Assembly (NCBI GenBank): GCA_018814355.1
Contig: JAHIZT010000120.1
Location: 1-55,534, forward strand
Source of the DNA: Candidatus Thermoplasmatota archaeon
GTDB lineage: Archaea > Thermoplasmatota > Thermoplasmata > UBA10834
Direction of reading: 5' to 3'
DNA: 55,534 bases
The notes under the pieces are model-generated. The model saw nothing but the letters and a program-made list of their open reading frames with translations. It did no database searches and was not told the origin of the DNA. Of the stretch, positions 3,740-21,415 are shown piece by piece. The translations under genes were made by a program, and so were the position numbers. How positions within the stretch are numbered: the stretch's first letter is position 1; the number at the start of each line of letters is the position of its first letter.

Positions 3740-5179
3740 ATGAAGAAACGGATTCTGAAGATGTTTGAGGAGAAGGGCATACTAGTCGAGCCCGACGCCA
3801 TCGACGCACTTGCCGGGGCACCTGACGCAATCAAATGCGCGAACACGATCCTCAACGATTCGAACAGACCGCTTGTTTTGACCAAGACGGATGTGAATGA
3901 CTATCTGACCTGCCAGCCCAAGAGGGAATCTGCTCCTCCGAGATCGGAGAATGTGGCGAAAAGCGAGCACCTTGAGAGCACGGGCGACCTGAAGATCCTG
4001 AAGGACATAACTGGCGATTCGACCTGCGTAGGGAATATCATCGATTTCGCGAAGCTGTTCAATGACCGGTTCTCGAACATCAAAAGAATCCTCGTAAAGC
4101 GAAGGGAGCTGTCGGGTCTGATGCCCATCTCGAAAGCAAAGAAGGTGAAGAAGGACATCAGATTCGTCGGCATAGTCAACGATGTGCGGACCACCAAGAA
4201 CGGTCACACTATGATTGACCTTGAGGACGAGGAGGACAAGATACAGGTCCTCATCATGAAGGGCTCGAAGAAAGGAATGGACTCGTTCATCAAGGACGAG
4301 GTCATTGGAGTCATCGGGTCCTTCAGCAAGGACGGAGAGATAGTTGTCGCGAAGGAGGTCATCAGGCCAGAAGTGCCGTACAACAGCGGCATGACGCCGA
4401 ACGGTTCGAGATCGGTCGTCGCATTTGTCTCTGACATCCATGTAGGGAGCACTGAGTTCCTGCCAGATGCTTGGAGCAGGTTCGTCGCCTGGCTGGCGAA
4501 GGACCCGTCAGCCAAGGATATCAGGTACATCATCATGCCAGGAGACCTCGTGGATGGCATCGGAATCTACCCAGGCCAAGAGGACGAGCTACTGATCGAA
4601 GACATCTATGATCAATACACCGAATTTGCGAGGCTCGCGAACCTGATCCCGGGATGGATCAAGCTGGTGATGATGCCCGGCAATCACGATGCCGTAAGGC
4701 TTGCGGAGCCGCAACCGGCTCTGCCTACAGAGGTCACATCCATGTTCGATTCGCGGGTGACCTTCGTCGGGAACCCGTGCTATCTCGAGATCGAGGGAAG
4801 GACCATCCTCGCATACCATGGGAGAAGCATGGACGACTTCATCGCGAGCGTCAGGAACCTGAGCTACTCGGAGCCGACCGAGATCATGAAGGAGATGCTG
4901 AAGAGGAGGCATTTGGCTCCCACGTATGGAGAAAAGACCCCGCTCGCGCCCGAACAGAAGGACTACATGGTCATCGACCGGGTGCCAGACATATTCGTCA
5001 CAGGGCACGTGCACGCATGCGGGATCGCAGAATACAGGGGAATCAAGCTCATAAATGCCTCTGCATGGCAGTCCCAGACCGCGTTCCAGAGGATGCACAA
5101 CCAGACTCCGGACCCGGCGAAGGTCCCGATGGTGAATCTGGGAACCGGTGAGGCATGGATCGAGGATTTCTCGAGCTGA
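3740..5179 (+). CDS. dp1: DNA polymerase II (PolD) small subunit, DP1
   Basis: The small subunit of the archaeal replicative polymerase PolD, providing the Mre11-like 3'-5' proofreading exonuclease and contacting the large subunit. An OB-fold region (FVGIVNDVRTTKNGHTMIDLED) precedes a calcineurin-like phosphoesterase domain. Its metal motifs are intact: SDIHVGS, MPGDLVDG, PGNHDA, YHGRS and GHVHA. The C-terminus (NASAWQSQTAFQ, MVNLGTGE) is typical of DP1. An upstream in-frame GTG at 3686 would add 18 residues, but the TATA box at 3707-3716 lies inside that stretch and sits 27 nt before ATG 3740, so I use 3740 (479 aa). The large subunit is not in the window. Confidence 0.93.
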   Translation: MKKRILKMFEEKGILVEPDAIDALAGAPDAIKCANTILNDSNRPLVLTKTDVNDYLTCQPKRESAPPRSENVAKSEHLESTGDLKILKDITGDSTCVGNIIDFAKLFNDRFSNIKRILVKRRELSGLMPISKAKKVKKDIRFVGIVNDVRTTKNGHTMIDLEDEEDKIQVLIMKGSKKGMDSFIKDEVIGVIGSFSKDGEIVVAKEVIRPEVPYNSGMTPNGSRSVVAFVSDIHVGSTEFLPDAWSRFVAWLAKDPSAKDIRYIIMPGDLVDGIGIYPGQEDELLIEDIYDQYTEFARLANLIPGWIKLVMMPGNHDAVRLAEPQPALPTEVTSMFDSRVTFVGNPCYLEIEGRTILAYHGRSMDDFIASVRNLSYSEPTEIMKEMLKRRHLAPTYGEKTPLAPEQKDYMVIDRVPDIFVTGHVHACGIAEYRGIKLINASAWQSQTAFQRMHNQTPDPAKVPMVNLGTGEAWIEDFSS

Positions 5180-16894: not shown

Positions 16895-18028
16895 GTGGCT
16901 GATAAGGAAGAGCCTGACAATCGGGCACGCACCAAGTACAGGGGTGTGATCCTGTTCTTGCGGGACGCGGGTGTGGCACTGCTATTCGTCATTCTTGTGC
17001 TTCTCGCGATGTTCGCGTACACCGGCCTCTGGCCGCCCTTAGTCGTCGTCGAGTCGAACAGCATGATGCACGGAGAGGACAACCTTAGCCACATCGGCAC
17101 AATAGACACCGGCGACCTTGTGCTCGTCAAGAAGGTCGACAAGGTTTCTGAGGTAGAAACTTACGTCGATGGGCTGTCGTCCGGGCACAAGACCTACGGC
17201 GATTACGGGGACGTCGTCATCTACAAGAGAGGCGGATCCGACACGATCACCCCCATCATCCACAGGGCCATCATCTATCTCGAGATCAACGCTGACGGAC
17301 AGAGCTACAGGTCGGAGTCGTTGAGCTCTGCACCATCAGACAGGTGGTGGACGGCAGATGCTGCAGACACTTGGGATAGGCTCACGAGCACATTGTCAAT
17401 CACCCACGTCGGCTACAAGGATCTCACGGTCGCAGTCGACATAGGGAACATGATATCATCGCACAGAAGTGGGTTCATCACGAAGGGTGACCACAACTCA
17501 CAGACTGACCAGTACGCCAGGGGCGAGCCTGTCGACCTCACGTGGATCGTTGGCAAGGCACGCGGGGAGATCCCTTGGTTCGGTCTTCTCAAGCTCTGGA
17601 CCACTGATTCACTTGGCAGCCCTGCGCCCCCGAACAGTGTGACGAATCTGTGGATCGCCTTGGGCGCTATAGTCGTCATACCGATAGCGATAGACATCTC
17701 GATGACGATCATCGAGAGACGCAAGATCGCCAAGAAGAGAGTCGGCCTGCTTACAGGGTCCACAGAGGAAGATGAAGAGAATGAGGGAGCGGCGGCTGCG
17801 GCCGAGCACTTCGAGTGTCCTCAGTGCGGTACTTCAATCGAAGCTACCGCGACCCAATGTCCGAAATGTGGAGTTGCGTTCGCCGAGGAGGGCGCGGAGA
17901 TGTTCCAGTGCCCTGCCTGCAATACTCTTGTCAGCGTGGACGCCAAATCCTGCCCTGGCTGCGGCGCCGTGTTCATCGAGCCCGAGAAGAAGTGGGAGAA
18001 AACCGAGGAACCCCCGAAACGGCCCTAG
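16895..18028 (+). CDS. signal peptidase I-like (S26B) membrane protease with C-terminal zinc ribbons
   Basis: A 377-residue protein with an N-terminal membrane helix (VALLFVILVLLAMFAYT). The serine-protease blocks of the archaeal/ER-type signal peptidase follow: VESNSMMHG with the catalytic Ser, PIIHRAI with the His that replaces Lys in this subtype, and FITKGDHNSQTDQ with the Asp. A second membrane helix (LWIALGAIVVIPIAIDI) follows. After an acidic linker come two zinc ribbons (CPQCG/CPKCG and CPACN/CPGCG). Signal peptidases remove leaders from secreted proteins. The zinc-ribbon tail is an unusual addition and would be cytosolic (inference). The stop is 3 nt from the convergent orc1 stop. 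Confidence 0.85.
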   Translation: MADKEEPDNRARTKYRGVILFLRDAGVALLFVILVLLAMFAYTGLWPPLVVVESNSMMHGEDNLSHIGTIDTGDLVLVKKVDKVSEVETYVDGLSSGHKTYGDYGDVVIYKRGGSDTITPIIHRAIIYLEINADGQSYRSESLSSAPSDRWWTADAADTWDRLTSTLSITHVGYKDLTVAVDIGNMISSHRSGFITKGDHNSQTDQYARGEPVDLTWIVGKARGEIPWFGLLKLWTTDSLGSPAPPNSVTNLWIALGAIVVIPIAIDISMTIIERRKIAKKRVGLLTGSTEEDEENEGAAAAAEHFECPQCGTSIEATATQCPKCGVAFAEEGAEMFQCPACNTLVSVDAKSCPGCGAVFIEPEKKWEKTEEPPKRP

Positions 18029-18031
18029 AGC

Positions 18032-19267
18032 TCACATCAGAGTTGTCTGGCACCGCAGCTTATAGTTCTTCAGCTGATTCAGTATCTCGTCCTCTTCCAG
18101 GATCGTCCGTGCTTCCACCACGGGCACGCTCGGCTCGATCTCCTTCGTTCTCCCCCCCCTTCCGAAGGACTTCACACGGGCGTGTATTATCCCGAGCATA
18201 TCGAGCTCCGAAATCAGGTCAGTGATCCTGCGTTGTGTGAGAATGGCCATCGACGTGCACTGGCACAGCTCCTTGTAAGTCTCGTACAGGTCGCCCGTTG
18301 TCAACTTGCTGTCGCCCCGCTCGTTGTTGAGCAGCACGCCCATCAGGACGAGCTTTGACTGCACGGGCAATGTCCGTATGGCCTCGGTGACGCAATCCAG
18401 CTCGATCTTGTTCTTAGCCTTGACGACATCTGATTCCGTGACAACGGGAACATGACTCCGGTCGGCGATCTCGGCTGCTACCCTCAGGAGATCGAGTGCG
18501 CGCCTAGCATCTCCGTGCTCCTGTGCCGCGAGGGCGGCGCAGAGCGGGATGACGGATGGTTCGAGCACCCCGTCCTCGAATGCAACCTTGCAGCGCTGCT
18601 CCAGGATGTCCTTCAGCTGCTCCGCATTGTACGGTGGGAACACCATCTTCTCCTCGCTCAGGGAGCTCTTCACTCGGGGGTCCAGGAATTCCATGAACCT
18701 GAGATCGTTAGATATGCCGATCACGCTCACCTTCGCGTTCTTGAGGTCGTCGTTGATCCTACACAGGTGGTAGAGGACGTCGTCCCCGCTCTTGGATACT
18801 AGCTGATCTATCTCGTCGAGAGCGATCACAATCACGCGCTTCTCCTGATCGATCTTCTCTCTGAGGATGCTGTATACTCGCTCGGTGCTCCAACCTGTGA
18901 ACGGGATCTTCTCCTCGAAGTTCTCGATGAACCTGTTCCCGATGTTCTGCAGGACTCCGTACTGTGTGTCGATGACCTCGCAGTTCATGTAGATGAAGTG
19001 GACCCTCTTCAGGTCTGTTGTGGCGCGCTCTATCTCCTTGCCGATGTATTTCATGCACGCCGTCTTGCCGGTGCCGGTCTTCCCGAACAGCAAGACGTTG
19101 GAGGGCCTCTGCCCTTCGAGTGCTGTGACGAGGATAGATGCCAGCTGATTGATCTGCTCTTCTCTATGAGGCAACACGCCTGGGATATACGATGACCTCA
19201 GGACGTCCTTGTCCCCTTTGAAGATAGTCTTCGAGCTGACATATCGCTGGAATATAGTATCCTGCAT
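18032..19267 (-). CDS. orc1/cdc6: Orc1/Cdc6 replication initiator
   Basis: A 411-residue AAA+ initiator that binds origin recognition boxes and loads MCM. The N-terminal block is IFKGDKDVLRSSYIPGVLPHRE, Walker A is LFGKTGTGKTACMKYI, and Walker B is IALDEIDQL. Sensor 1 (VIGISNDLRFMEFLDPRV) and the initiator-specific SLSEEKMVFPPYNAEQL are present, followed by a C-terminal winged helix (about residues 310-411). ATG 19267 is preferred over TTG 19288, which would add seven unconserved residues. ORB-like elements lie directly upstream, so autoregulation is possible. Confidence 0.95.
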   Translation of the reverse strand: MQDTIFQRYVSSKTIFKGDKDVLRSSYIPGVLPHREEQINQLASILVTALEGQRPSNVLLFGKTGTGKTACMKYIGKEIERATTDLKRVHFIYMNCEVIDTQYGVLQNIGNRFIENFEEKIPFTGWSTERVYSILREKIDQEKRVIVIALDEIDQLVSKSGDDVLYHLCRINDDLKNAKVSVIGISNDLRFMEFLDPRVKSSLSEEKMVFPPYNAEQLKDILEQRCKVAFEDGVLEPSVIPLCAALAAQEHGDARRALDLLRVAAEIADRSHVPVVTESDVVKAKNKIELDCVTEAIRTLPVQSKLVLMGVLLNNERGDSKLTTGDLYETYKELCQCTSMAILTQRRITDLISELDMLGIIHARVKSFGRGGRTKEIEPSVPVVEARTILEEDEILNQLKNYKLRCQTTLM

Positions 19268-19300
19268 CTCCGTCCCCCGCTGAAGCAAAAAGGCTCCTTT

Positions 19301-19324
19301 CCCCCCCTTGGTTTCCTATGGAAG
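19301..19324 (-). promoter_or_regulatory. ORB-like element 1
   Basis: Read on the minus strand this is CTTCCATAGGAAACCAAG followed by a run of G. It has the dyad TTCCA-n2-GGAAAC and the 3' G tract of archaeal origin recognition boxes. It sits about 35 nt upstream of the orc1 start. Confidence 0.6.
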
Positions 19325-19335
19325 CCGCTCTCGGA

Positions 19336-19355
19336 ATCCACTTGAAACAGAGGGG
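19336..19355 (+). promoter_or_regulatory. ORB-like element 2
   Basis: ATCCACTTGAAACAGAGGGG matches the short mini-ORB form (CACTTGAAA core) plus a G tract. It faces the opposite way from element 1, 11 nt away. Confidence 0.5.
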
Positions 19356-19513
19356 ATTATGGAATGCAATAGAGGCTACTTAAGCGTTAATTTTATTGTG
19401 AGATATCATTTTTTCCGCAGCCCGGATATTTTCGAGATTTGTTTGAGCCAGTAAGAATGGAGAATGGAGTGGTCAGAATAAAAGGTTTGGATGCACAAGC
19501 GTGCGCATTTCAT

Positions 19514-19541
19514 GAGGGGGACCCCTTCGCTTCCGGTGGAA
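19514..19541 (-). repeat. left arm of a perfect 28-bp inverted repeat; ORB-like
   Basis: The 28 bases here are the exact reverse complement of 20964-20991. On the minus strand the arm begins TTCCACCGGAAGCGAAGGGG and continues into a C run, resembling an ORB. It lies about 130 nt before the hflX ATG. Confidence 0.85.
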
Positions 19542-19674
19542 CTGAATTTCGACGAGCTCTGGCGGGCAATTGAGTGGGCCTCCAACGGAACCCGGGGTTT
19601 CCCGGCCCCATAAACTGCCGGGAATCGTCGGCAAATACCATTATCTCCCGAAAGACCCTAAGCATTTGGCACAC

Positions 19675-20997
19675 ATGAAGAACGCGGTGATATTTGCCAC
19701 CAGTGAAGAGACAGAAGAGATACGATCGCTTCTGAGTAACATAGATATCGGAGTCGTGAAGGAATATGTTCAGAGGCGAACTGCTGCTCATAGGACAGGG
19801 TTCCTCGGTCCCGGTAGAATCGACGGGATATTTGACGAGATGAAGTCGATGGACGTCGACTTGATTGTTGTGAATGGAGTCCTCAAACCCTCTCAACACC
19901 ATTTCTTGGAGATGAAGTTCCAGAAGGAGTGTATTGACAGGCTGGGAGTGATTCTCAGGATATTCACTGATCATGCACACACGCAAGAGGCAATCGCTCA
20001 AGTCACTCTGGCCAAGCTCAGATATGAGCTCCCCTTCCTTCGCGAGTGGATACACAAAGCAAAGAGCGGCGAGAGGCCTGGATTCTTGGCAGGAGGAGCC
20101 TACGCTACGGATGTGTACTTCCAGCATGCGAAAACCCATACTAGACGGATTGAGGAGGATCTTGAGGAGCTATCAAAGCAAAGGGAAATCACTCGAACGA
20201 AGAGAAGAGAGAAGGGGTATTCTCTCGTGTCTCTTGCCGGGTATACCAACGCTGGGAAATCCGCCTTGATGAACAGGTTATGCTCAGCGAGCGTTGAAGT
20301 CGATGGTCGCCTATTCTCCACTCTTGCTACAACTACCAGACGAATCAAAGGGGTCCATGGGAACATGCTGATGAGCGACACCGTTGGGTTCATCAAGGAC
20401 CTTCCTCCAGATCTGATCAATGCGTTCAACTCGACGCTGGAGGAGATTTTCTATGCCGATTTGATCCTCCTAGTCTTTGATTCAAGCGAAGACAGAAGCA
20501 CTGTTGAGATGAAACTGTCAACTTCGCTTAACATCCTCCTTCCAAACATCGAAAACAGGAAGTTGGTAGTCGTTGGCAATAAGACCGACCTCATCTCCAA
20601 AGAGAGAGTGAAAGAGATGCGCTCGTTTGTAACTCCAATGATTAGACCTTATGAGCTCGTGATGGTTTCCTCGTTGACCGACGAAGGTCTAGAGATGCTC
20701 AAAGAGAGGATTGCCAGTATTCAAGATTACTCATCCGTGATTGAAGCGATTGTTCCGTTGACGAACGAGGTCTTCGGCTTCTTGTCCAGACTCCGAACAA
20801 AGGCTGACGTATCACAGATGATTCTGAAGGACTCGGTCAAGGTCGTGATTCGATGCAAGCCAGAAGAATCGGACAAGATCATGGGCCACCTGAGGACAAT
20901 CGGAGCAATCAGAGCCGAACTGCGCACGAACGCCTCTGAGGGTGCCAACCAAGGCGAATCGGTTTCCACCGGAAGCGAAGGGGTCCCCCTCCACTGA
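19675..20997 (+). CDS. hflX: HflX-family GTPase
   Basis: A 440-residue ribosome-associated GTPase. The N-terminal HflX domain (VGVVKEYVQR-like segment, GFLGPGRIDGIFDEM, LDR-like RLGVILRIFTDHAHTQEA) precedes a G domain with G1 GYTNAGKS, G3 DTVGFI and G4 GNKTD. HflX splits or rescues ribosomes under stress. The frame opens at 19570, but homology begins at ATG 19675 (MKNAVIFATSEETEE), which I use. Its codons use more A/T in third position than neighbouring genes (for example many AGA, CGA, ACT, GCT), hinting at transfer. The last codons overlap the right arm of the inverted repeat. Confidence 0.92.
   Translation: MKNAVIFATSEETEEIRSLLSNIDIGVVKEYVQRRTAAHRTGFLGPGRIDGIFDEMKSMDVDLIVVNGVLKPSQHHFLEMKFQKECIDRLGVILRIFTDHAHTQEAIAQVTLAKLRYELPFLREWIHKAKSGERPGFLAGGAYATDVYFQHAKTHTRRIEEDLEELSKQREITRTKRREKGYSLVSLAGYTNAGKSALMNRLCSASVEVDGRLFSTLATTTRRIKGVHGNMLMSDTVGFIKDLPPDLINAFNSTLEEIFYADLILLVFDSSEDRSTVEMKLSTSLNILLPNIENRKLVVVGNKTDLISKERVKEMRSFVTPMIRPYELVMVSSLTDEGLEMLKERIASIQDYSSVIEAIVPLTNEVFGFLSRLRTKADVSQMILKDSVKVVIRCKPEESDKIMGHLRTIGAIRAELRTNASEGANQGESVSTGSEGVPLH
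20964..20991 (+). repeat. right arm of a perfect 28-bp inverted repeat; ORB-like
   Basis: This is the exact reverse complement of 19514-19541. It covers the final hflX codons (encoding STGSEGVPL) and ends 6 nt before the stop's last base. It begins TTCCACCGGAAGCGAAGGGG on the plus strand. Flanking bases differ from the left arm, so the identity is limited to 28 bp. Confidence 0.85.
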
Positions 20998-20998
20998 C

Positions 20999-21415
20999 TC
21001 AGAGCTTGAACTCCTTCTTCTTCTCAATGACATGATCCTCGAACTTCTTCGGCAAGGACCAAGCCAGGTATTCGATGTCATCCATGTTCCTGACGAACTT
21101 GGCCTTGCTCGACGTGTCAACGAGTCCAGCCAGCTCTCTGATCTTCTTCACATAGTCGTAGACCCACCAGGCACACACCACCAGGCCGATCGGCGCAGCT
21201 ACCACGAGCCAGTAGACCCAGGTCCCGAACGGGTCTGAGAGGTAATTCTTGATTGGAAGCAGGTACGAGGGGACCGTTTGCGGTGGTTCCTGGGCCTCTG
21301 CGTGGAGCGCAAGCACTCCCACTATGCTGACGATGGTGAGGAAGCCGAACAAAAGAGCCAGGAGGCTCCCAAGCTCGAGCCTGTATTCCGTCAAGAAGCT
21401 CTTTGACAAACTCAC
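20999..21415 (-). CDS. two-helix membrane protein of unknown function
   Basis: A 138-residue protein with two membrane helices (LELGSLLALLFGFLTIVSIV, and VYWLVVAAPIGLVVCAWWVY). They are separated by a short loop containing PPQTVPSYLLPIKNYLSDP. A cytosolic C-terminal region (IRELAGLVDTSSKAKFVRNM, then IEYLAWSLPKKFEDHV) follows, with a basic end. I do not recognise a function; it may belong to a Thermoplasmata-restricted DUF family. The GTG start is preceded by a TATA-like ATTTTAAC about 31 nt upstream. The stop is 1 nt from the convergent hflX stop. Confidence 0.7.
   Translation of the reverse strand: MSLSKSFLTEYRLELGSLLALLFGFLTIVSIVGVLALHAEAQEPPQTVPSYLLPIKNYLSDPFGTWVYWLVVAAPIGLVVCAWWVYDYVKKIRELAGLVDTSSKAKFVRNMDDIEYLAWSLPKKFEDHVIEKKKEFKL

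Follow-up and report, generated by a model that had tools for sequence, protein, structure and literature searches.

The question raised by this locus is why a single gene, hflX, should be enclosed by a perfect inverted repeat in the genome of a Thermoplasmatota archaeon. In the window, i.e. the whole stretch of 55,534 nucleotides that was analyzed, a repeat search returned one long perfect inverted pair, at 19514-19541 and 20964-20991, with 28 of 28 positions identical and 1422 nt between the arms; every other inverted pair in the window was imperfect. By a rough estimate, only about 1e-7 perfect 28-bp inverted pairs are expected by chance in 55 kb. Read outward from hflX, each arm consists of TTCCACCGGAAGCGAAGGGG followed by TCCCCCTC, and the flanks of the two arms are unlike, so the original prediction of exact reverse complements set in different surroundings was borne out, as was its placement of the right arm within the final hflX codons (the stop codon occupies 20995-20997). 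Across the 2.06-Mb genome, the exact 20-bp core of the arm is found at these two sites only, and contig C53 adds one match with three mismatches. Judged by its sequence, the repeat around hflX is probably a pair of putative sites for the archaeal replication initiator, i.e. origin recognition boxes (ORBs).

This assignment, which had also been predicted, is supported by the arm sequence, by a nearby initiator gene, and by conserved position. An orc1/cdc6 gene of the Orc1-1 type (18032..19288, minus strand; PF09079, 7.7e-27; PF22703, 2.7e-26) lies directly to the left of hflX, and the closest solved structures to its product are Sulfolobus Orc1-1 (2QBY_A, 2e-103) and Aeropyrum ORC1 (2V1U_A, 7e-99). 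Scanning the window with the ORB pattern gave four consensus matches around the orc1-hflX module, here termed A to D. ORB A (TTCCATAGGAAACCAAGGGG; 19304..19323, minus strand), which is proximal to orc1, shows 0 mismatches to TTCCANNNGAANCNAAGGGG and occupies the same position in most of the genus; ORB B (ATCCACTTGAAACAGAGGGG; 19336..19355, plus strand) is weak, with 2 mismatches to the pattern, and is degenerate in relatives. The left arm of the repeat (19514-19541, minus strand) is made up of ORB C (20 bp, 19522-19541) and a G/C tail, its G run pointing away from hflX, and the right arm (20964-20991, plus strand) of ORB D (20 bp, 20964-20983) and a G/C tail, at the hflX end and 7 bp from a convergent gene. 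Between ORBs A/B and C, base composition reveals an AT-rich stretch (19335..19509) that is a candidate unwinding element: AT content reaches 68% at 19335-19414 versus 45% locally, and GC content is 35-43% in most 60-bp windows across 19350-19509. A further ORB-like match with one mismatch inside hflX (TACCAGACGAATCAAAGGGG; 20334-20353, plus strand) is probably due to chance, and no ORB-like site was seen at this position in the scanned relatives.

The bracketed gene (19675..20997, plus strand, with an in-frame upstream start at 19570) encodes the ribosome-binding GTPase HflX, as indicated by its N-terminal (PF13167), middle (PF16360), and GTPase (PF01926) domains, and is the only PF16360 gene of the genome. 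The convergent gene (20999..21415, minus strand) encodes a small membrane protein of the DUF3198 type (PF11433, 2.6e-6), whose 27.5 bits fall just under the 28.7 cut-off, with relatives scoring above it. In most genomes of the class, the DUF3198 gene adjoins ORBs with or without hflX or orc1 (e.g. L056-L061, L295), and a link of this small membrane protein with the origin is suggested. Beyond the 3' end of orc1, a membrane protein (16895..18028, plus strand), in which Pfam recognizes zinc ribbons only, was read by eye from its N-terminal half as signal-peptidase-like; most relatives encode a homolog at the same place.

Since orc1/cdc6 lies to the left of hflX, and the gap separating the two genes contains an AT-rich stretch as well as another good ORB, the locus has the appearance of the origin linked to orc1 in a Thermoplasmata lineage. 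We consider it likely that arms C and D are the outward-facing ORB pair of a chromosomal oriC1-type replication origin, at which Orc1 would bind and replication would start. The features expected of such an origin that we found are an adjacent Orc1-1-type initiator gene and ORB sequences comprising a dyad and a G run; in terms of layout, A/B and C flank the AT-rich stretch, and the outward pair C-D flanks hflX. In the mechanism that we propose, Orc1 produced from the neighboring gene would bind each ORB with fixed polarity and recruit the MCM helicase, and the AT-rich stretch between A/B and C would be the likely melting site. The location of hflX between C and D would then mean that the ORB pair of this lineage spans a gene rather than a short AT-rich spacer alone. 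The GC skew of one relative (G011), calculated from 40 samples of 20 kb, shows no clear turn at orc1 and thus speaks neither for nor firmly against an origin; archaeal GC skews are often weak.

Perfect 28-bp inverted arms could also be recombination sites, used either to invert hflX or to insert it, and the original prediction had offered, as one option, an insertion of hflX between two ORBs or its gain by recombination at them, and had noted a possible inversion of the 1.4-kb segment. The lower frequency of G or C at third codon positions (GC3) in hflX, on which the first proposal drew, is real (0.59 versus 0.67-0.78 in 11 neighbors). Nevertheless, hflX GC3 is below that of orc1 in 22 of 22 genomes, and low GC3 was rejected as a sign of recent gain because it is family-wide. 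Moreover, HflX and Orc1 distances are correlated over 18 genomes (r = 0.93), so that hflX evolves in step with orc1, and the bracket is present in all 17 family genomes sequenced at both ends as well as in many other families; a recent insertion is thus unsupported. Inversion fares no better: although the segment is surrounded by inverted repeats, as an invertible segment should be, hflX has a single, constant orientation throughout the family and order of the window, in no relative is the hflX segment inverted within unchanged flanks, and no dedicated recombinase is encoded between the arms or among the neighboring genes examined. Two cases of flipped hflX genes might have favored this explanation. 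In Aciduliprofundum/DHVE2 relatives (L149, L150, L152, L291; G032, G074), hflX adjoins orc1 on the strand opposite to that in the window, but no repeats resembling an ORB pair were found around the gene. In G044, hflX is flipped relative to DUF3198 with ORBs on both sides, but the locus has been relocated and its whole neighborhood changed, making this case ambiguous. Neither flip can be tied to recombination between ORBs, no clear ORB-mediated inversion was found in the relatives, and we regard a role of the arms as recombination sites as very improbable.

We scanned the orc1-hflX region of 20 relatives along with 80 named loci, mostly from uncultured Thermoplasmata and Methanomassiliicoccales. 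All 17 family members in which both ends are sequenced carry an outward ORB pair around hflX with a spacing of 1431-1445 bp. The left ORB, always on the minus strand, is 232-247 bp away from where orc1 starts, and its partner on the right, always on the plus strand, is at the hflX end. Both genomes of the sister family have the bracket (1526 and 1395 bp), as do about 30 further loci, Methanomassiliicoccales included. With or without DUF3198, hflX is bracketed in genomes of the Methanomassiliicoccus type as well as in families f13, f16, f19, f20, f23, and f24, and the bracket extends outside the class to f28 and f51. Scanning found no bracketing ORBs in family f39 or at hflX in four genomes of the class (G021, G022, G061, and G098), which speaks against the origin reading. 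The absence of the arms from relatives, or their dissimilarity there, would have spoken against the prediction; the arms are present, though seldom identical to each other. As far as sequence comparison can tell, the outward ORB pair around hflX is an old arrangement, common to many related archaea.

The pair is kept although orc1 is elsewhere in G043, G068, G089, G075, G095, G133, G141, G165, G190, and G128; in the first five of these, and in f28, orc1 is distant or on another contig. In f7, f15, and f21, the outward pair encloses DUF3198 and hflX is not there. In some genomes, 9-18 bp separate the end of the right ORB's 20-bp core from the last base of the stop codon; in others the core continues beyond the stop, and it is read in more than one frame. 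Because the reading frame and stop position differ between genomes, ORB D is evidently maintained as DNA and not as protein, and a protein-level explanation of the right arm was rejected.

The same survey bears on the possibility that ORB C, and perhaps D, are operators through which bound Orc1 regulates transcription of hflX and of the gene convergent with it, linking a ribosome-associated GTPase to replication, rather than helicase-loading sites. Where the orc1-hflX gap is wider, ORB C remains with hflX (L106, L111, L113), an observation that we also counted in favor of the origin pair; ORB A is just upstream of orc1, and in the f28/f51 relatives the hflX start is preceded by a minus-strand ORB at a distance of about 55-64 bp. 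The f28 locus L277 has an ORB directly upstream of GTTTATATGG and the partner ORB likewise placed before an inward-facing radical-SAM gene. Both of its ORBs (L277, 6320-6400 and 10800-10845) adjoin the same TATA motif, AGTTTATATGGG, and the two motifs precede hflX and, 4.4 kb away, the radical-SAM/helix-hairpin-helix gene. With both f28 ORBs placed right before TATA boxes, ORB C may have a function at a promoter, and we counted this against the origin reading. On the other hand, ORB D is located at the 3' end of hflX or at the convergent junction in the family of the window, where a promoter is unexpected, the distance from ORB C to hflX ranges from about 50 to 300 bp among the scanned loci, and the f7 pair encloses DUF3198, a dehydrogenase, and a gcvT-like gene without any hflX. 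Operators are therefore a possible but rather doubtful explanation for these sites.

If C and D belong to an origin, good ORBs should be rare elsewhere. Whole-genome searches of 17 genomes with the pattern TTCCANNNGAAANNAAGGGG, allowing one mismatch, returned only two or three matches in most of them; the reversed pattern, used as a control, matched once in all 17 genomes combined. Of the 28 good ORB matches in the 12 genomes with a full hflX, 23 are no more than 5 kb from that gene, and 8 of these genomes have the hflX-adjacent pair as their only good ORBs.

We then considered why the two arms are identical in this genome. In the other family members, left and right ORBs of the same genome agree at 16-25 of 28 positions, and this genome (G000) is alone in reaching 28; the arms of its nearest sister (G002) differ from those of this genome, and the maximum of 272 left-right comparisons between different genomes of the family is 25. 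Read against the genus, the G000 right arm has a left-like T at positions 1 and 21 and the left arm has a right-like GCG in its core, suggesting that homogenization was two-way or convergent. Pairs matching at 26-28 positions make up 13 of the 63 examined (G060, five from f7, four from f28, two from Methanomassiliicoccales, and G000) and often share genome-specific variants in both arms. When partners were shuffled inside families across the phylum, after making orientation consistent and splitting families, the within-genome identity was 21.62 versus 20.97 expected (p = 4e-5, an indicative value given that the families are small and some relatives close). The excess persists with G000 left out (p = 5e-4), and the same permutation gave no excess identity for the 10-bp flanks on either side of the ORBs. 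Within the family of the window, left/right identity shows no average excess (20.3 versus 20.2), which counts against the origin reading. Across the phylum, the two ORBs of a genome thus tend to resemble each other, and the 28/28 identity is an extreme example of this tendency. Spread of the paired ORBs by gene conversion had been one option of the original prediction; the part that holds is that the two ORBs of one genome evolve together, of which the cause may be a shared Orc1 specificity or gene conversion. Their likeness is most simply explained by their fit to the same Orc1, with gene conversion possibly helping.

Co-variation and near-uniqueness also bear on the suggestion that ORB D titrates the initiator or is a regulatory site, like the Haloarcula oriC2D cluster, the origin proper being A/B, the AT-rich stretch, and C. 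These elements already look like a complete origin beside orc1, titration of the initiator by ORB-rich DNA next to an origin has precedent (PMC3936714), and the genome has a second ORB pair, located between gyrB and thiC. However, D is a lone site rather than a cluster, nearly all relatives retain it, its sequence varies together with that of its partner, and the pair comprises the only good ORBs in many genomes, leaving a titrating or regulatory role of D unlikely.

The gyrB/thiC pair also faces outward, its ORBs being about 270 bp apart (L054, G000:C53:52000-67142; 4714-4733, minus strand, and 4985-5004, plus strand). Pairs of this type with similar spacing occur in G001, G002, G003, G005, and G008, and in G005, G007, and G008 about 45 kb separate the pair from orc1, in the direction of hflX. 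It is possibly a second origin, an initiator sink, or a means of gyrase regulation. About 2.4 kb from the pair, L054 (7431-9611, plus strand) encodes an archaeal protein in which a DnaA-type AAA+ domain (PF00308, 1.8e-48) is joined to DUF835.

Returning to C and D as an origin pair, the closest precedent comes from Methanomassiliicoccales, a related order in which ORBs are "gathered by pairs" around orc1/cdc6.1 in a conserved gene context and have nearly the same consensus (PMC4153887). ORBs at orc1 were thus already known from that order; relative to the portion of that account considered here, the features added are the enclosure of hflX by the ORBs, their outward pairing with a gene in between, the maintenance of the pair without orc1, and the co-variation. 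We found no description in the literature of ORBs bracketing hflX. Haloarchaeal oriC1 has a comparable context (GTP-binding protein, origin, cdc6, and signal peptidase; PMC4010727, PMC3403918), in which the origin lies between orc1/cdc6 and a divergent gene for a GTP-binding protein that may or may not be HflX, and its ORBs are inverted with G runs that point outward as read from a mutation list (PMC4010727, PMC3936714, PMC3403918). Haloarchaeal matches to hflX on plasmids are not beside orc1 and say nothing on this point. Both inverted ORBs of Haloarcula oriC1 are needed for autonomous replication (PMC3936714), and at Sulfolobus oriC1 the inverted ORB2 and ORB3 are both required, are bound with polarity by Orc1-1, and direct MCM to the intervening space (PMC12141716). 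The geometry is different: haloarchaeal ORBs flank a short AT-rich region and Sulfolobus ORB3-DUE-ORB2 spans about 130 bp of AT-rich DNA, whereas here one ORB lies beyond a 1.3-kb gene, C and D enclose 1.4 kb of coding sequence, and the AT-rich stretch is outside the pair, which also counts against the origin reading. ORBs embedded in a coding sequence near an origin are known from Thermococcales (PMC2643942); the gene that contains them there encodes DP1 of PolD instead of HflX, and bracketing goes unmentioned. On balance, we file the locus as an unusual but recognizable variant of an oriC1-type origin, with an outward ORB pair spanning hflX, and as neither an inserted gene nor a switch.

A broader proposal, which we put forward tentatively and hold to be questionable as a whole, is that the Thermoplasmatota origin is marked by one outward ORB pair, independent of the location of orc1, whose members can enclose genes, in most cases hflX and/or DUF3198, at a spacing of 0.5-4.5 kb, the ORBs acting as separate, opposed helicase-loading sites that are kept alike by concerted evolution. 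Such sites have been proposed for yeast, where each of two inverted ORC sites is able to recruit an MCM hexamer according to PMC10813338, with reference to Coster and Diffley 2017; separated helicase loading in archaea would be an extrapolation by analogy.

If these proposals are true, the origins of many uncultured Thermoplasmatota could be located from the hflX-associated ORB pair, even in genomes with a distant orc1. These loci would also provide natural archaeal test cases for whether helicases for bidirectional replication can be loaded from two opposed initiator sites that lie kilobases apart, and a ribosome-linked GTPase kept at an origin would offer a lead on the coupling of replication with translation.
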